Translations under genes and position numbers: made by a program
Shown: positions 6,646 to 20,697 of the stretch, one piece after another
Position numbering within the stretch: position 1 is the first letter of the stretch
Layout: every line of letters starts with the position of its first letter
Notes under the pieces: generated by a model
The model's input: only the letters and a program-made list of their open reading frames with translations
What the model was told of the DNA's origin: nothing
Database searches by the model: none
Origin: Diprion similis
Lineage: Eukaryota; Arthropoda; Insecta; Hymenoptera; Diprionidae
DNA length: 64,000 bases
Direction of reading: 5' to 3'
NCBI RefSeq assembly: GCF_021155765.1
Contig: NC_060110.1
Location: forward strand, 11,221,501-11,285,500

Positions 6646-9022
6646 TTAGGCCTGAAATTGCAACAAGAGTACGAGATACGTTGTGAGGAGAGCGGTGATC
6701 TGAAACAGCAATAGAACGAGAAGGTTCGTTCAGTTCCAAGAAGTTTAAATAACTTACAGATGCATTAAATATCGATTGAAAGTGTTCGACCAATTCCACA
6801 AACTTACGGAGCGCAGGAGAGGCAAGTTTACGTGGAAGCAGCCAGCCGCAGAAAAGTTCAACCTACGATTGATGAGATGCAGAGAAGATTCGATTCTCTA
6901 TACAAAAAAAAAAAAAGTAAAATAAATAAATAAATAATAAAATGTACTTTAAAAATGAATCCAAGCTATTATTATACTCAGAATTTTAAATATTTCCTCA
7001 CGTAGCTACGTCTGATGGTGGAAGACTTCCAGTTGAACAGGATCGAGCCTATGCTGTTTGCCTGAATGGTAAACAGGAGTTAATTTTTGAGCATTTTACT
7101 ACTAACGAGACGGTTCGATTTGTAAAGTAACCCGAAATCTGAGGGATAGTAACCTCGCTCGAAGTATAGTGACAGGTGATGTGAAGCAGCAGAAGTTGAG
7201 ATCCAAAAACGACGACCCACCAAGCGATGCAGGCGACGAGGGACCACCGCGTGTCCACTGTGTCTGTCGTCGATACAAGCCAGTCAATCAAAAAGTACAG
7301 ATTGGCCACGCTGTGGCCGCAGAGATTTATCAACCATGCCAAAAGGGGCCAAGAGTACTGACGACTCAGACTCTCGCTCGCGTTCATTAGGCTGTTGTGC
7401 AGCTGATGTATCACCTTCGATAAGGAAATAAGAGGAAAATGTAAGCAAACATCAGAGCCTGATCATCGTCAGGCCAATCGCTGTCTTCAGTTCTCTTCTT
7501 CATTTCCGCAATTGCGTGAACTCCATTTTACTATTGCTCTGAAGCACTATGTAACTTACTCTGAAATCTACCCCGAGGTACTTTTGCGTGGGCAAAGTTG
7601 ACGAGTCCTTGCTACGTTGAGCGACTTCGTTCAGATGTCGAAAGCGTTGTCCGAGCAGAAGCACAATGCCTGAGAACTTTATTGTGCTGAATGAGTTCGT
7701 CACGTAGCCCAGAATGTAGATCATGTTTTCAACGAAGGATTCATGGAAGGCGATAATGCCCGTCCCGACGATAACGGCCCAGGCGATGAAGCTGAAAACG
7801 AACGTGAAGAAGACCCAAACTTTCACGGATCTTTCCTTTAGCGGATAACCGAGATAACGCATCCTTGTATCGAACTGCTTCATGATGTTCGTCACCTCGG
7901 CGAGTTCCTTTCGCGTCCAAAGAGATCCCAGGATGTTCAGCATCAAGACTGAGTAATTAGAGATCACCTGCATGGCCAGAAATTGATTTTACTGTTAGTC
8001 TGCATTTTTTTTTTCTTTTTTGTAATGTGGTGAAAAGATTATACGTGTCTCAAAATTCAAGCAATTTTTCCCGAGTATGCTGTACCGAAATTTATTGAAG
8101 CGTGTTTGTCTGGAGCTTCGCGAGAAGCCAAGAAATCCCTTAGAGGGCTGGCCGTGCCAGCTGGAGTCAAACATGTTCAAAACCTGTTTCATGACATCAA
8201 ACAGCTTGTTTAAATTCTTCGAATTTACCGCTTCTTTCAGAGTCTGAGTGCAACGATGCCACTGGAATTGAGACCTTTCGAAAATAATTCTTCGCAATCC
8301 TTCACGGTTGTAGGATATGAATAAAATTTAATTATTATCTTTCCGAAACGGTGAGGCTTAATGTTTAAATGACTTAGCAAAGAACTGTCGGAAATTTGTC
8401 TCTTTATTAAACGTAGGCAGCTTTTCAAGCGGATGAAAAACTCGGTCGCATATAAGCTGTACTTTGCACAAAGTTTGCGATTATGCCGCACACGATACCA
8501 GATCAAGGTTAACGAACGTTAAATAAGTATATCCATTTGTCTGAAAATGCAGTAAGTAACATTCCACGATCTATTGCGTTCTACTTCGGTGAGTTTCGCC
8601 TTCAATAATCGGAGAATTTGTAACCCTTGTCCTTTGCCGTTATAAACTAAAGCGATTCGAGTGAAAGTTTGAAACTGAAGAATGCAATAAAGTTACATAC
8701 ACACCTTCGCAGTTTCGGTGACGTCGAGAATCGGTGTGTTTCTTTCGATGCCGGTGAATTTGCGGAGAACGATGTAGAGAAGGTAAGTGTGAAGCATGCA
8801 GCAGAGTATGGAGTAAAAAATTCCGTAAGTCCAGGATACGAAACGGTCGTCACGAATCTCCAACGGAGCGTGTCCGATAAATCGAATGACGTAGAATAAA
8901 GGACGAACAGCCGAAATTACGGGCCATTCTAGTCGTGAAACTTGCCCAGGATGACGACGAAAACGAGAAGACAGCTTCCTCACGGCGGATTCAACGTCGA
9001 AGACCCCCCGTGACACATGCAT
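6646..9022 (-). CDS. gustatory receptor (GR family, 7-transmembrane), complete
   Basis: Insect gustatory receptor, a ligand-gated channel family of taste neuron membranes. Exons on the minus strand: 9022-8705, 7973-7560, 7414-7154, 7061-7002, 6897-6808, 6699-6646. All joins are phase 0 and give 398 residues with no internal stop, a normal length. Exon 1 carries the N-terminal PLFYVIRFIG-type first membrane segment; exon 2 has the next helices. Exon 4 holds a divergent form (ANSIGSI) of the conserved Ala-Asn-Arg loop. Exon 5 has LHLINRRLNFSAAGCF, the pre-TM7 segment, and exon 6 ends in TYLVLLLQF (388-396), the TYhhhhhQF signature of GRs. The three short C-terminal phase 0 introns are typical of the family. 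The exon 3 donor (GAG|GTTACT) and acceptor (AAG) are weaker than the rest. No close match to the sugar, CO2 or Gr43a subfamilies is evident, so the ligand is unknown. It stands alone here, with no tandem copy seen. Confidence 0.93.
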
Positions 9023-12000: not shown

Positions 12001-15000
12001 AAAATCAGTTATACTGATACCTGCAGCCCTCCTGATACTGAGAGCAAGCGATTATCGTTGATTGATGAGGGGCTTGAATATCTCTAGCATGCTTGAAGCC
12101 GAGGGTAAACTCTAACTTGCAGGAAGGAAAGGCTTCCGCGTTCAATTACAAACCGTACACACCATGGGGTTTGTCCTAATTAACAATTACGGGGAAAACA
12201 AAATAGAGTGTTTTTCCAGAGTTTATGAAACGTCTTTCGGTAATACCTTTTGATACAGGAGCTCTGTTTCAGAATTTACGTACAGATCCATTTTTGGACC
12301 TCAGAAACTCTGGGGTATTAAATTAGGAAGAGAAAGTGTAATTCGAACTGTGTTTCTTATAGGTGTACGTGAAAATATCTGTGCAAGTATTAATTAAAGA
12401 TGTGACAATAAAGAGAAATTTCATCGATGTAAGAACCGACCAAAACGGGATGGCAGTGGAAAATTTTCATACTCCTTTAAATAAGGTATTTGATTAAGGA
12501 AAAATTGGACTCATCCGCCGATGTAATTCCTAAGCTTCTCACGTACAGCGAGGGAGAATTCTGGGCAGTATATATCGAGCAGTTTGCAGAGCGAGGGAAA
12601 TCCAACCCCCCAAGGTGCAACCAACTCAGAGACATATCGAGCGTTGCCCTCGCGAAAGGTAATGAGATGCACATTTTCCAGGGAGTATTGTCCGGCACCC
12701 TGGCGCCAACAAGACGTCCTGCACAATTCTCATCTGCTGGATGTTTGGCAAATTACATAGCATCCTGGCGTTGTAACGACCATCGTTCCGTGACGCTATG
12801 CCGGGAAACGTTAAGTAAAATTTGCGAGACGTCGGATCTTCGCGTACCTTACAATACCGTGTAACTGCCTACGATTTGTTTGTTGTTCTATTTCGTAATC
12901 CTAGTCATGTCAATATTGCCACTTGTTAGTCATGATCGAATATCGGTGCAATGTTGTGAAATTAAATATTCAATGTGATAAGAAAAATGTTTCGACGAAC
13001 TTGTAGTACATAGTCTTAAAATTAGTTGATTAAAGTGAGCTATCGTGAAGTGAAATCGAACAGATCCCTTGGATTTTTAACCGTTTTTGGATAATTTGAA
13101 AGTTGAAACGAAGCATAGATATCGAAACCTTTTTATATGATTCCAGTATTTTTTACTTAAAACTCCGTAGCTCACGAGTATAACGGTATAATAAATACTC
13201 AAGGTACGATTATTCTATTATGTTGATAAAAATAATATAGAGTATCGATTATTGGCCAACAATCTTAATTACCTCTGAGAAATTCAGGACAAGACTAATT
13301 GACTCTTGTGTTTACGTGATCAGTACCATACCAAAATGGAGTTTTACATTAAACCGAATTAGTTTGGATTTGTTCTCCGCCTTCTTGCAGGTGAGATGAA
13401 GAGACGATCGAGATCCTTGATTAAACGTATGCAAGTTTTTCTTCAATTTCTTGAAGGGAACATTCGAACTTAACGATTAAAGGTCAATTTGTCGAGTGAC
13501 ACTGATGAGAAGTAATAGTCTGACGCCGGTGTAGGTTTCCCGACAAGTATAATCCGCTTCAGACATTAATTAATCAGTTACAACGGGCAGTTGTAGCCTA
13601 GCTGTCTGGCTCTCGCGATGGACTGCCGTTCAGCTCTTTCTTTTTAGTCTGGCGAGTTAGGTTGAGTTATAATCAAGGAGGTACAACAAGTATTTCATGT
13701 TCGAGTCTGGTTTTTGAAAGCTGTTTTTAATAACTATAAGGAAATTCGTATTCTTGAAGCAATTGTCGTATCGATGATTCCCCGTCGTTTTATAACTTTC
13801 TTCAATAATTACGATAAAATTTTCCGAACAATGGAGAATAGCTCTTTCAAATTTAAAGAGATCTTTTCATAGAATCAAACTCGAATCTGTATTTTCTAGC
13901 GTGAAAATTGTGAATATTACATATCTAACTGAAAAAACGTTTCATGATTGGAAAAAACGAACGTTATTATCATTTATCGATTCGCTAAAAACTCGACAAT
14001 ATCGTCCACCATACTTTACGAAATTGATTTTTGGCGATATCAAAGTGATTTATTTCGGACACACATTTCTCGATTCAATGTCAAGTCAATTTGCACGATT
14101 TTCAACAAATCCGATATAAGAAATTTCTCTTTCATTTTCAATTTGTAATCGTAGATGTAGGGTGTATAAAATGCAGAAAAAGTTTCACTTCGTTCTGACT
14201 TCTTTTGCGAACAGGGCAAACCTCTGCGCCGATATACCGCAAGCCTCATCGATATTCCGGGTGAAAATCACGCAGTGATTGATCTACCCTTGACATTTGC
14301 GCCTCATAATTTCCCGATCATCCCTGACACGTATATGCGTGGGATATGGGATATTTATGGGCGACCTAAGCGGCAAAGCTGCCATATTATGGCTCAGAGT
14401 ATTTCTTCACCGCAGTTCTAGAATCGACGAGAATGAAACCTGCAGCGCAGCTATTGTAGTTTGCCTCACCCAGCTTAGCCTAATCTACTTAAACTTCGCT
14501 GGGATGTGTAAAAGCGCGAAAGTCGGAAAGTGGCGAGTGGAAACCGTGACAAAATTTTGCGGTAGGTATAGTGGATTAGCTAGTGGAAAGAAAACAACAT
14601 TCAGCTAGTCCGATTTATGGTGCGACTTCCAATCTCTTTCACGCTGGTTCAGGAAAACTCACTATTTACACTCCAACTTTCCACTTCTCGATGTACCCGA
14701 ACAACTTTCAGATGAAGAATAGCTAACCTCCCTGTACGTTGGAGAAAAATCGAATAATGTGGCAAGTATTAGAATTTTTATAACACCATTGCAAGCCATG
14801 ACGTAATAATTGCGAAACTTAAAGCTCAATTGTTTGCGAAGAAATAAATTATTTTTTACAGAAAGTAGAGTAAAGTGTAAAGCATTATTCTGAAGAAGAA
14901 GCAGGATTGTCTAGCCATATAAGTCATTCGTTGTAATCATCGACGAAGGGCCGGTCGAGTTACTAAATATTTTTCAGGAAGTTTGAAAATATTAAACAAG

Positions 15001-15751
15001 AATATTGTATCAACTAATATTTTTGAGATGATAATATAAATTCGATTAAAGTTGAACGAAAAAATTATCGAGGATAAATTCCCTCAGATTGACGACTCTG
15101 TGCAAATAGATTAACCGATATAAAATCGAAGACAATTTTCCATGAAAGAATCAGATGATAAAGCCCCTTCGCTCCTGGCGCTAGACCTAAAGGATTCATT
15201 TTCACATCTGATCGTTTATGATCGTAAAATTGATACTCAAATATTTCAAGATTAGAATTGATTGGTTTATTGTTGCAAAAAACAACCCTCCACCCCCTCC
15301 CACAGTTCTTGGGTTATGGATGAGCCTGCTAATAAAATTACCGAACCGGTTCAAAACCCGCAAATCCGTACCTGACAGGGACTACATGCCTAAATAGCGA
15401 GCCGCTGTAATTCGATTGCACAAACAAATTTCTCACACATCTCGCCCTTTTATGAATTCTCTATAGTTGATTACATCATATCACAAAGAAGTAAAAACAG
15501 GTAATTTTTGTTCGTCCCCCGGCGAAGAAGGCACACTTTGTTGAATACTACAGCACTTGATCAACTCATTGAGTCATTTCCCTGTCGCATTCAGCCTAAT
15601 CAATTCTGAAAATGACGTGAGCACTGCAGGCATAGATCTCATTGATTTAGACAGCAGCGAAAAAGTCGGTCTACGGTTACTAATTCTGCGGTCTAATCGA
15701 GGGCGTGTGATTCATAGTAAAGATGCTCCTCTTCTCCAGGTCCTCGGTTTT
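9023..15751. other. long gene-poor region
   Basis: No gene is supported. Open frames of about 100 to 125 codons exist on the plus strand at 12490-12864 and 14297-14608, but they lack recognisable domains, have no convincing splice partners, and their antisense strands are equally open. Poly-T and poly-A runs occur near 9430 and 10490. The 3' part (about 14900-15550) is AT-rich without structure that I could recognise. Confidence 0.5.
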
Positions 15752-17582
15752 CTATAACGAATTAATCCCCGTCTGTGGCATCGCGGCCGTTTTCACATCC
15801 GCACGATGGTCCGAAGCAGTCCCCCGAGAACCATCCGGAGCCCCGAAGACGAAGCTATGCTCGTATATTTTGAACCATGCCTCTTCGCCCATCCATCGCT
15901 TCTCCGTTGGCTCCCGTGAGTCGTCGTTAGTTTCCTCCTCTCCGTCAATTTCCCCCCGAACTGTTTTTCTCGTTGCCGTCACCCTCCGCTCGCTGTCTTC
16001 GTCCTGCACTTGAAGATCCGTATCGTCCTCGTCGATCCCTCGATCCTCGGCAATGTCCTCAGCCTTACGGACCATGTTCCGAACAACATCAACAACGCAT
16101 GGAAGAAGCGTATCCTCGTTCGTATCCGAGATCCGGGGACTGTTTTCACCCCAAAAGGTAAACGTCGTTCTTGTCTTTTCCGCGTCCAATCCATCAGTTA
16201 CGTGTTCGACGGATGATACCTGCAGAAGTGAATTTCCGTCCGGTCTGTGCATCGATATCTCGTCGACCACATCTTCGCCCAAAGACTCGGAATCACTTGC
16301 GACTTCATTGGGTTGATGAAAAGACTCACTGATATCGTGCCCTGATGCGAATGACGTTTGCAAGCCATGTTTGCAGGCAGTTGATACTTCTGCTAAACGA
16401 TGGGACCGCCGGCTGATGGACGAGAAGCTTACGCTGAGATTATCGTCGAAGGTAACATAGTTGCGAAATGAAATGCCTGGATATAGGCGGTCCCATTCGG
16501 GACAGGAGATGATCTCTGGCGTGTCGTTATCGCGTCTGATATTCGCGCGTCGAAAACTGGACAAGATAAATTCCTTCGAGACGCTCTCCCACGCATTTAC
16601 GATGTTGTCGATAGTGTCCGCGAAGGTCCAATTAAAATTGGACCCCATCGTCACCTTCCTCGCGGTGTAACTCTGGCGGTAGATCGTTTTGAAGCAGTGA
16701 AATATATTCGCCCTTAGCGGCTGCAAGTTTGGGGGAAACTCTTTTGGGAAGAAAATCAGGCTCACATTCGACAGGACAGTGTCCTTTAGAGCATGGACGC
16801 GACTCCTGCTCAGCAGCATTACAATCTTCCTGTTCGATCGCGCCATTTGGGCGTTTAAGTCTGTTATCCAGACTCTGAATACGTCTCGAGTGATCCACGC
16901 GTCCGGATTGAAAGAGTATTTGCATCTGTCGTAAGCCTGCACCTGAGTATCGAATTTTCCGCATATCAATGGCGGCAGTTTCTCGACCCCCGATGCGCTG
17001 CAGCAAAGCAATACGGTAACGCGATGTTCCCTGTCTTCTCCGTTTCTGCAAGTAACGCAACCGATCGCCTCTCCTGGTATCTTCTCTGGGGAAATATTAT
17101 GGTACATTCCGATCTCGTCAACCTGAAAGACGTCCTTGTACCGATACTGAGACATGTGGGGTCTCATCAGGTCGATCCACTCTCGATAGTCCTTGAAGAC
17201 CGGATCATGCAGAGTGGAAGCGATTGACGGTAAAAAACCGTACTTCTTTAGGAAGATCGTCACCCATCTTTTCGAAAATTTAACGTCTGTATTAAGAGAT
17301 TTTCAAATATGTTACGTTGTAAGCTTCAACCTTGTGAAATAGGCGACACCGTCGATATAAGCTGCAGATTGCATGCCGATATCACGGTGTGGAATTAGAA
17401 ATCGACTTACCTCCGAGGCCTAATTCGAGTGAGAGATCGACGGCTTTCCGTCCAACTATTTCCCTGTTCAACGGCTGATTGGTAGCGTGTTGTTCGCACG
17501 TCCATTGGAAGAGTTTTTTACGAAGGATCTCAATCTTAGTCTTATCATTAGTACTTCGAGGAGTTTTTCGCAGACTCATCAT
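15752..17582 (-). CDS. Tigger/pogo transposase-derived protein, catalytic triad lost
   Basis: Two exons, 17582-17411 and 17286-15752, join at phase 1 across a 124-base intron (donor GTAAGT, acceptor ACAG) into 568 residues with no stop. Residues about 16-75 form a CENP-B/Tc5-type helix-turn-helix (LFQW...RKAVDL...FSKRW). Residues about 105-265 match the DDE domain of Tigger elements: VDEIGMYHN (Asp114), a K/R-rich VTVLLCCSASG stretch, PLICGKF, AWITRDVF, and a final FK..YR. The second catalytic Asp of the LLDN.AH motif is Ser217, and the third, of LQPLDQG, is Arg249, so strand transfer should be impossible. About 300 residues follow, with a strongly acidic part (about 470-535) not usual for the transposase. 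An intact long frame plus lost chemistry suggests a host-recruited DNA-binding protein; a recently dead copy is the alternative. The first psq-like HTH seems absent or lies in an unseen upstream exon. Base composition is clearly more GC-rich than the flanks. Confidence 0.85.
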
Positions 17583-19253
17583 CGCGATCCCAGTGCCAAC
17601 GTGTCAGTGTTTGAACCTCGTGGGCAGTGTGAGAATCGCGGACGTTTTCCAAAAACGGGGTAGTAAAACTAAAAACTATGTAAAATATTGGTCAGAATAC
17701 ACGTCAGAAAAAAGAATGTGTCTGATAAGAAAAACACAAGCAAAATGATCTCGCGGTACTTATTGTTTTTCTTTCATCGCCTGATTTCACGTTGATACGT
17801 CGTTTGGATCGTTGCACCATATGTGGTTCGACTTTTGCATTGAGCAACATTCGCAAACTTATAAAAAGTAATGGGGATTTTTTACGGTGGAGAAGCTTGG
17901 TGGAAAAAACACAGCAATTATTTCTTTACTTTAAGTGTTTCTTGACGCTTTGCCGATTATCCTTATCTAATCGATTTCCGAGAATGAGCTTATTGCCCCA
18001 GTAAATGGAAATACATGAATGAAGTTTGATCCAAAAATAAAGTTGAATACCAAAGTTAGAGCAGGGATATCGTCTCATTCCTATCCCAACACCACGTAAA
18101 ACGTGACGACTTAAGACTAATCTTTGGAACAAGACTTGACTGCTAAAGCGGCTGGAGAGAGTTGGTAGAGTTGAGCCCTACGCAAAGTTACAATCCCATG
18201 ATCTGTGAATTATTAAGTCTTATTAGGTTGTCATCGACGAGGGATTGAAACGCTGAGATAAAACAATCGAGAAAGCTATTGACATTTTGTTACCAACTCA
18301 TCGAATATCGGTTAACTATTCAAGTTTTCCTTTTGAGATTTTGTGAGTCTATTATAATGAAATCAAACCAGAGGAAATCAATAGATTGGAAAACGAAACT
18401 ATAATCATAGTTGATTATAATAGTTGAAAATAATTACATGTGTGAATGCACGTAAACGATGAAATAAATTTTCGAAAAATTTGTAGAAAAACAAATTCGC
18501 ATTCGGTAATGTTTTCTTCAACTCTCTAGAATCGTTAAAGAAATTTCATTTGTAAAAAACGTGTTACATGCAGCAATGAAAATGCCATTACGATTTCCAT
18601 TCAAAATGTCTGCAGAACATTTGTTCATTGAGTGAACAATTTAGGTTCGCATCTAATACAACAGTTAGTATTTTCCTTGGCAATATTTGAAGTAACGTGT
18701 TGTCCCTACGCATGAACACAATGCTAATATCAAAAAATACACTGTCCGACAATTTTGGAAAATGGATTCAGAATTTTATTTGACGACTATAAATAAGGAA
18801 AAAAAATTTCACAGATGTTGAAGACGTCAATGTAAATTCGTCAAATATTTCTATACTAATCGGTTTCAAGGAGAAATGGAATCGTGGATATTGCAAGGAC
18901 TTCCTGCAGGATTTCTAAGCATATTAATAATATGTAGTGAAGTTTGAAGAATTACATGTGAGTAGGACGAGATTCAGCTATTGGTAATTGTACACTAATA
19001 TATATATAACATACTGCACATCCATCTGTTGATGACTATACACAGCATGAAAAAACTATGAATTGTCATTGTGATCATGATTGAGTCATGATAACACACA
19101 TAACTTGCCCAGAATAGCACGGATCAGGAAATAAACTTATCAAGTTGTCTGTAAAGTTGGTTCAGTGTGTAAAAAACTGTTCTGATCTGTCTATGTGAAT
19201 CTAAAGACGAATAAATCGGAAAACAATACAGTATTACATGAATACAAACTTCA
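17583..19253. other. intergenic, nothing recognised
   Basis: AT-rich sequence between the transposase-derived gene and the 3' end of thymidylate kinase. Short open frames at 17479-17748 and 17792-18004 show no domain and are treated as chance. It probably includes the 3' UTR of thymidylate kinase (minus strand) and the upstream region of the transposase-derived gene. Confidence 0.5.
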
Positions 19254-20697
19254 TCAAAGTGGCTTAGAATTGTAAAGCTCACCTAAAGGTTTATTTTTTA
19301 CCGTTTCTATCGTAGAAAGAGCCAGAGTCAACAGCTTTGCATGTACTTTATCGATATCATCATTACCATTGACGGTTACCCAGCTCTCGTCCATTAACTG
19401 ATGAAGATTAGACGAAATCTTTTGCTGCAGCTCAATACGTTCAAAACGCTCGCTTCCCCAGCCGGCACGTGATGCCTGTACATCCTCACTGACTTCGAGA
19501 AGAGCGACTAAATCGGGTTTTGGAAGCCCTCGGTCAGGTTCTTTGCACCAAGAGAGGTCTTTCCCTGTTGTTGCTGCAGTATAAGCAGCTCCAGAGCCAG
19601 CATACCTTCACCCAAGAATAGAATTGCTGGTTGTTTCATTCGTAAAATTAAAAGTGGTAAAACGTTTCACGTAGAAATTTTCCATCCATTCGCTTATGCA
19701 TACCTATCGACGATCAATGTGGTACCAGATAGAATGGCTTTCTTCATCTCTGTACAGTTTTCCCATCTATTTGATGAAAACAAGAGGTGAACAGTCTCTG
19801 CGGGAAGTTCCACTGCGTGTGACAGATATTTATCTATCATCTTACCAACTTCGGTTGTTCTGTCTGTGAAGGAATAACGATAGTGTGTAAAAACTATTTG
19901 CAATTTAGCAGTTTCCACAGCATGTAAACGAGGGGGGAGTTATTGTAATAATAAAGATCCTAAAATGCAACTGTACATTTGATGAATTGCCCAGTGTCAC
20001 AATATCAACGATGTGTAGGTAAAGGAAAGAAGAAAAAATGTGAATAATGTGTTTATGCGAGTATGACGTTTGTTGGTGGGAATATATAGTTTCTGACTCT
20101 AAACAAAAGTTGAGGAATTGCCAAAGAAACTTGTTCATCACCTACAATGTCAAACCTTTTAGTTTTACATTGATTTGATGTACATACAACATCTGATTAA
20201 ATTTCAGGTTGCAATCAAATGTGAAAAGACACGTCGAAATAATTTATAACATATCTTTAACTTTGGCTTTGTTATTGAAAATATGTGAATCGTAAATAAC
20301 AACAGAAGTCGTTAGTCAATCAATAGTTGAGGAGTACGAAAAATTGAAAATCGATATTGAAACAGTTATCATTGATCCGTACAAACATAAAGTTGACTTA
20401 TGACAATACAATATAGAAGTATTCAAACAAGAGAAGAGACACAAAAAATGTAAACAAACTTGTATAACTGATTTTCGAAAGAGGAGATAAATTCAAAACT
20501 ACAATATTAAGAATAGTTATTAACAAATATCACCCAGCGTAATGATCATTTGGGTAAAGTAACGTACCGGGAAATCTCCGGACTTCTGCCGATATCCCAC
20601 GTGCGGTCAACTCTGTGACCAATTTTTGGACTTGCGTGGATTTTCCAGCTCTGTCGCACCCTTCCAAGACCAACAACGCGCCACGCTTGATCGTCAT
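19254..20697 (-). CDS. DTYMK: thymidylate kinase (dTMP kinase)
   Basis: Phosphorylates dTMP to dTDP with ATP in the dTTP pathway. Exons 20697-20568, 19863-19704 and 19605-19254 join at phases 1 and 2 to 213 residues, the usual length of the eukaryotic enzyme. Visible motifs: P-loop [10 protein letters not shown] (about residues 12-21), the [16 protein letters not shown] segment formed exactly across the first intron, [10 protein letters not shown], the base-binding DRY motif at the end of exon 2 continuing into exon 3, [14 protein letters not shown], and the LID-type GWGSERFE. After DRYA the sequence reads GSGAAYTAA, where relatives usually have an aromatic residue before the Ser. The third exon uses an AAG acceptor. 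No other in-frame Met precedes the P-loop region except this one. Confidence 0.96.

Follow-up and report, generated by a model that had tools for sequence, protein, structure and literature searches.

A probable host gene derived from a pogo/Tigger transposase in Diprion similis

Known genes derived from pogo and Tigger transposases

Pogo/Tigger transposases have been recruited as host genes in vertebrates, where the process is documented (PMC7386202, PMC7325037), and their recruitment is also reported across animal phyla (PMC10027918). The window analysed here, a stretch of 64,000 nucleotides of Diprion similis (contig NC_060110.1, positions 11,221,501 to 11,285,500), carries on its minus strand, at window positions 15752–17582, a two-exon frame of 568 amino acids. 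Very probably, it is a host gene that descends from a pogo/Tigger transposase recruited long ago and that has been under selection as a protein-coding gene since. Because such recruitment is documented in vertebrates and reported across animal phyla, the gene adds to a known kind. It is a probable insect case of a recurrent process, the general picture of which it leaves unchanged.

The vertebrate Tigger-derived genes TIGD2, TIGD5, TIGD7, JRK, JRKL and CENPBD1 are host genes of about 524–670 amino acids that retain the DDE_1 domain (PMC7386202). In place of the third acid of the catalytic triad, TIGD2 has S, TIGD7 has N and CENPBD1 has G, and the triad of TIGD5 is entered as "?" (PMC7386202). 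The Diprion gene resembles this set in its apparent origin from a Tigger transposase, in its length, in the presence of DDE_1 and in its catalytic changes, which some of the vertebrate genes also show. It differs from the set, as described in PMC7386202, in having only the HTH_Tnp_Tc5 domain in its DNA-binding half and in the intron inside that domain. The support is also of another kind: the vertebrate recruitments are backed by the ratio of non-synonymous to synonymous substitution rates (Ka/Ks; PMC7386202), whereas the present case rests on sequence features.

CENP-B and the pogoR-derived TIGD3, TIGD4 and TIGD6 likewise share with the Diprion gene a pogo-superfamily origin and DDE_1, and the triad is unrecognisable in CENPB, TIGD3 and TIGD4 (PMC7386202). 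CENP-B has both helix-turn-helix motifs and a dimerisation domain, whereas the Diprion gene has the second motif only, and a Pfam scan of its protein gave no match to the CENP-B dimerisation domain. POGZ, which is derived from Passer, has the same combination of a single HTH_Tnp_Tc5 and DDE_1, but its triad is intact (DD35D) and it has zinc fingers (PMC7386202); the Diprion protein has lost two residues of its triad, and no zinc fingers were found in it by the Pfam scan.

Gene structure and domains

Exon 1 (17411..17582, minus strand, as are all gene features below) opens with the start codon at 17582 and has 172 bases, that is, 57 codons and 1 base. Exon 2 (15752..17286) has 1535 bases, stop codon included. 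The intron between them (17287..17410) follows the GT-AG rule, reads GTAAGT...TTAATACAG (ending in ATACAG) and, with its 124 bases, is not a multiple of three in length. It lies within the HTH_Tnp_Tc5 domain, and the splice is supported by homology, since joining the exons lifts the Pfam score of that domain from 16.8 bits for exon 1 alone to 33.7 bits, above the cut-off of 22.2. The spliced frame of 568 codons, as first proposed from the letters alone, is thus borne out by the GT-AG join and the raised domain score. In the alignment, the intron falls where the two nearest relatives in the genome, L010 and L011, continue unbroken. The gene contains an open run of 511 codons, for which the chance is about 3e-12 at local base composition, with one starting place and independent bases.

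The HTH_Tnp_Tc5 match, the second helix-turn-helix of CENP-B type, spans residues 19–75 (17234..17528, split by the intron; E 3.7e-8), and residues 1–75 are strongly basic, with an isoelectric point (pI) of 10.2. The DDE_1 match covers residues 145–302 (16553..17026; Pfam E 1.5e-26, 93.5 bits, cut-off 22), and the catalytic domain proper starts ahead of it, near D114. With DDE_1 present, the gene belongs among the pogo/Tigger-derived genes as these are delimited in PMC7386202, where the DNA-binding half has either CENP-B_N plus HTH_Tnp_Tc5 or, as here, HTH_Tnp_Tc5 alone. No solved structure matched exon 2 by sequence at E 0.1.

The CENP-B-type DNA-binding half of the original prediction is confirmed for the second motif, and the first was not found. 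CENP-B_N is absent from the Pfam scan of the 568-residue protein; a whole-genome scan reported it in at least 15 places elsewhere and in none on the contig of the window; and a profile built from 15 sequences of the same genome gave nothing on the minus strand between 17411 and 24000 (best E 1.9). A first helix-turn-helix encoded in an upstream exon was rejected after the genome scan and the application of the local profile to the minus-strand frames of this interval. An upstream exon of a kind that these scans do not recognise may belong to the transcript. The space upstream of the gene is bounded by the last exon of DTYMK (Thymidylate_kin match, 19254–19607).

The catalytic triad

Three codons of the gene align with the D, D and D of most other Tigger/pogo-like open reading frames (ORFs) in the genome. 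The first position is kept as D114 (GAC, 17117..17119), the second is occupied by S217 (AGC, 16808..16810) and the third by R249 (AGG, 16712..16714), each assigned by alignment and codon. The 31 residues between positions 217 and 249 fit the spacing of the second and third catalytic acids of Tigger, DD29-36D (PMC7386202, PMC8472432). The alignment, together with the strong DDE_1 match, upholds the proposed Tigger DDE domain with D114 kept and serine and arginine at the two other Asp sites. Mobile Tigger transposons have an intact DDD triad; here, it reads D, S, R.

The comparison comprised 20 other ORFs that match the window protein by phmmer, taken from loci that cover most, not all, of the 67 DDE_1 matches in the genome, and several rows are near-identical and thus not independent. 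Position 1 is D in 19 of the 20 rows (E in L063), position 2 in 17 of the 19 rows with a letter (N in L010, G in L063, a gap in L031), and position 3 in 16 of 17 (E in L008, gaps in L031 and L047; L033 was dropped since its frame shifts earlier). In none of the 17 other rows that have a letter at positions 2 and 3 are both of these changed. Starting from GAY, at least two base changes are needed to reach AGC and three to reach AGG.

In DDE enzymes, the loss of two metal-binding acids should abolish catalysis, and we infer that the Diprion protein would be unable to cut DNA. Its fold appears to have fared differently. Of the 25 positions at which at least 80% of 15 dereplicated rows agree, the gene keeps 17; the eight lost ones include two of the three catalytic positions. 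This pattern suggests that the DDE fold was held while catalysis was dropped.

Among the compared ORFs, L063 (C8:26156199-26156741) is a DDE_1 ORF of 383 amino acids with E and G at catalytic positions 1 and 2.

Copy number and relatives in the genome

A DNA search with the 1951-base locus found one match in the genome, the locus itself, and a genome DNA search with each flank likewise returned only the flank and no second copy; these searches skip very common words, so some fragments could escape. The interval 14500–19300 holds 11 inverted pairs, and the gene lies between the arms of two of them, one of 27 nt at 70% and one of 12 nt at 92%. When the flanks were compared with each other, 137 of 200 shuffles gave an inverted match at least as good as the best one observed, which is therefore at chance level. 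No terminal inverted repeats flanked by TA stand out above chance in this interval, where short or degraded repeats could be missed. The many near-identical copies with terminal repeats that would mark a recently dead transposon were thus seen neither in the DNA search nor in the flank comparison. A single copy, no terminal repeats found and an intact frame, all three seen here, are among the features by which domesticated (stationary) transposase genes are recognised.

At the protein level, 18 places in the genome match, 17 of them elsewhere, with 25–33% local identity where listed, the gene itself excepted, and 28% for the best, L010. Over residues 20–300, the gene is 16–24% identical to the 18 rows aligned for the tree, the closest rows reaching 24%. 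The end branch of the gene measures 2.94 changes per column, compared with 0.39 and 0.33 for L010 and L011. The fork that joins it to these two has a support of 85/99 and was drawn open, its exact placement being unsure.

L010 (C13:10559879) and L011 (C10:1396683) share with the Diprion gene DDE_1, HTH_Tnp_Tc5 and an acidic tail. Unlike it, they carry CENP-B_N, in the same uninterrupted frame as the other domains, and they have 24% identity to it; L011 has, in addition, the full triad, while L010 has N at position 2. L010 (C13:10559879-10561201) is an intact Tigger ORF of 440 amino acids with strong inverted repeats of 86–93 nt downstream, and its family includes broken copies and several 5' fragments elsewhere in the genome. 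L011 (C10:1396683-1398413) is an intact Tigger ORF of 576 amino acids.

The low identity to relatives also bears on a further proposal, that the gene is a recruited repressor of living Tigger elements which occupies their ends or poisons the transposase complex. In favour of it, one DNA-binding helix-turn-helix and the DDE fold are kept with two catalytic acids gone, and related elements are present in the genome. However, at 16–24% identity to the tree rows, and with no local match above 33%, the protein is unlikely to share target sites or to form mixed dimers with these elements, and the first helix-turn-helix was not found. A role as Tigger repressor is therefore very unlikely.

Retention of the reading frame and base composition

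Neutral decay of the frame was simulated with 1000 runs per step, assuming 0.08 insertions or deletions (indels) per substitution and transitions for half of the changes. With indels included, 19 frames survived at 2% divergence, 3 at 3% and 0 at 5%, 10% and 20%. When stops alone were counted, the survivors numbered 286 at 2%, 152 at 3%, 62 at 5%, 2 at 10% and 0 at 20%. A control from the same genome is provided by L010, the DNA search of which gave 16 matches; beyond the two longest diverged copies, these are fragments of about 66–141 bases or the query itself. The two longest diverged copies, on C2 (87% and 80% DNA identity) and C7 (75% and 79%), contain 9 and 7 stops, respectively, in the matching pieces, some of which overlap, and the frame changes between the pieces. 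The window frame is whole although it is far more diverged than these broken copies. Together with the simulation, this contrast indicates that the frame has probably been kept as protein-coding. It also makes the retention of the gene testable by comparing relatives.

Base composition points in a similar direction. The GC content at third codon positions (GC3) is 0.58, versus 0.35–0.46 in all 11 other Tigger/pogo-like ORFs for which it was measured, out of the 20 in the alignment (L057, at 0.66, is not a DDE ORF and was left out), and the flanks of the gene have 35–38% GC. Elsewhere in the window, GC3 is 0.63 in a gustatory-receptor exon, 0.57 in a homeobox exon and 0.30–0.41 in the eight further ORFs measured, including Sec16 and DTYMK. 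The composition thus looks like that of a high-GC3 class of host genes and unlike that of the local transposons. The higher GC content had been taken earlier to fit selection on codons. The excess over the local transposons is real, but GC3 is by itself no proof of such selection, since the gustatory-receptor and homeobox exons are similarly high.

These data bear on the possibility that the locus is a Tigger transposon that died only recently and still has an unbroken frame. The genome does hold 67 DDE_1 matches, some from families with several similar copies, and, if stops alone count, a few percent of neutral divergence need not close a frame. Yet the DNA search revealed no second copy or fragment, terminal inverted repeats do not exceed chance, the branch is very long, both catalytic Asp residues were replaced by multi-base changes in an intact frame, and the composition is unlike that of all 11 transposon-like ORFs. 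A recently dead transposon is accordingly very improbable. The recruitment of a dead transposase, as put forward in the original prediction, is well supported by these results and by the intron that L010 and L011 lack.

Several observations weigh against recruitment or against parts of it. Catalytic loss, even at two positions, is not unique to this gene: L063 is changed at positions 1 and 2 (to E and G) and L010 at position 2 (to N). Neutral survival at 3–5% divergence is not rare when stops alone are counted. A single copy alone proves little, because L011, with its triad intact, is also without another copy except for a 106-base match. Of 5000 shuffles each, 37 reached the codon-position signal of the tail and none that of the domain, so that the signal of the tail is the weaker one, but present. 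Lastly, since the first helix-turn-helix was not found, sequence-specific DNA binding is less sure.

The C-terminal tail and possible function

The C-terminal tail (residues 303–568, 15755..16552) is moderately acidic, with a pI of 4.60 and 55 D/E versus 30 K/R. Its acidity, noted in the original prediction, stands; its novelty does not. Four of the 13 other ORFs compared have more acidic tails (L010, L011, L014 and L063, pI 4.05–4.37), L008 follows with 4.98, and the remaining eight are not acidic (5.96–10.10). The acidic tail as a special feature was rejected on these grounds, the more acidic tails including those of both nearest relatives. The acidity was probably inherited, as both L010 and L011 have it. 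In its sequence, the tail matches no other place in the genome at E 1.

CENP-B, jerky and the TIGD proteins have roles at DNA or chromatin, and the C-terminal part of CENP-B is acidic. The Diprion protein may well act in a comparable way: it would enter the nucleus, where the basic helix-turn-helix at its N-terminus (residues 1–75) would make contact with DNA or chromatin, the DDE fold, no longer catalytic, would provide a scaffold or a surface for dimerisation, and the tail would contact proteins of transcription or chromatin. The parts that remain, a basic helix-turn-helix, a possible scaffold and a tail rich in acidic residues, point to an association with DNA or chromatin as in these proteins, which has about an even chance of being correct.

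Alternatively, the gene may have been recruited with its DDE fold in a role away from DNA, for example in protein binding only, and the helix-turn-helix would then be a relic. That the first motif was not found is consistent with such a role, as is the weakness of HTH_Tnp_Tc5, which scores 33.7 bits against 70.3 in L010 and 65.4 in L011. The motif is nevertheless still above the Pfam cut-off, and residues 1–75 have kept their basic character. A function unrelated to DNA is rather unlikely.

For a role at chromatin, a narrower version can be considered, in which the gene encodes a chromatin protein restricted to an insect lineage, with a single helix-turn-helix, a DDE core lacking two acids and a tail unique in the genome. 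This architecture occurs in none of the six Tigger-derived genes tabulated in PMC7386202. If this version, an unlikely one, were true, the very long branch could be the outcome of conflict with, for instance, satellite DNA or transposons.

Other observations

Relatives in viral and prokaryote contigs were sought by pattern, with 1 and 11 matches, respectively, none of which was confirmed, in line with expectation. Five DDE_1 places of equal score (C1:12938607, C1:16546053, C2:3183632, C8:6596947 and C14:1396045), all with frames of 713 amino acids, look like a recently active pogo-like family. L057 (L057:771-2261, minus strand; C13 near 587764) is an ORF of 497 amino acids without a DDE_1 match. 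It has the strongest CENP-B_N among the matches listed for the genome (69.8 bits in the genome scan, 65.4 in the ORF scan) and may be a host gene for DNA binding that is unrelated. A 7tm_7 chemosensory-receptor exon lies downstream of the Tigger-derived gene, at window positions 7500–7988 on the minus strand. About 480 bases past the stop codon, an AATAAA (15266..15271, minus strand), identified by consensus match only, is a candidate poly(A) signal.
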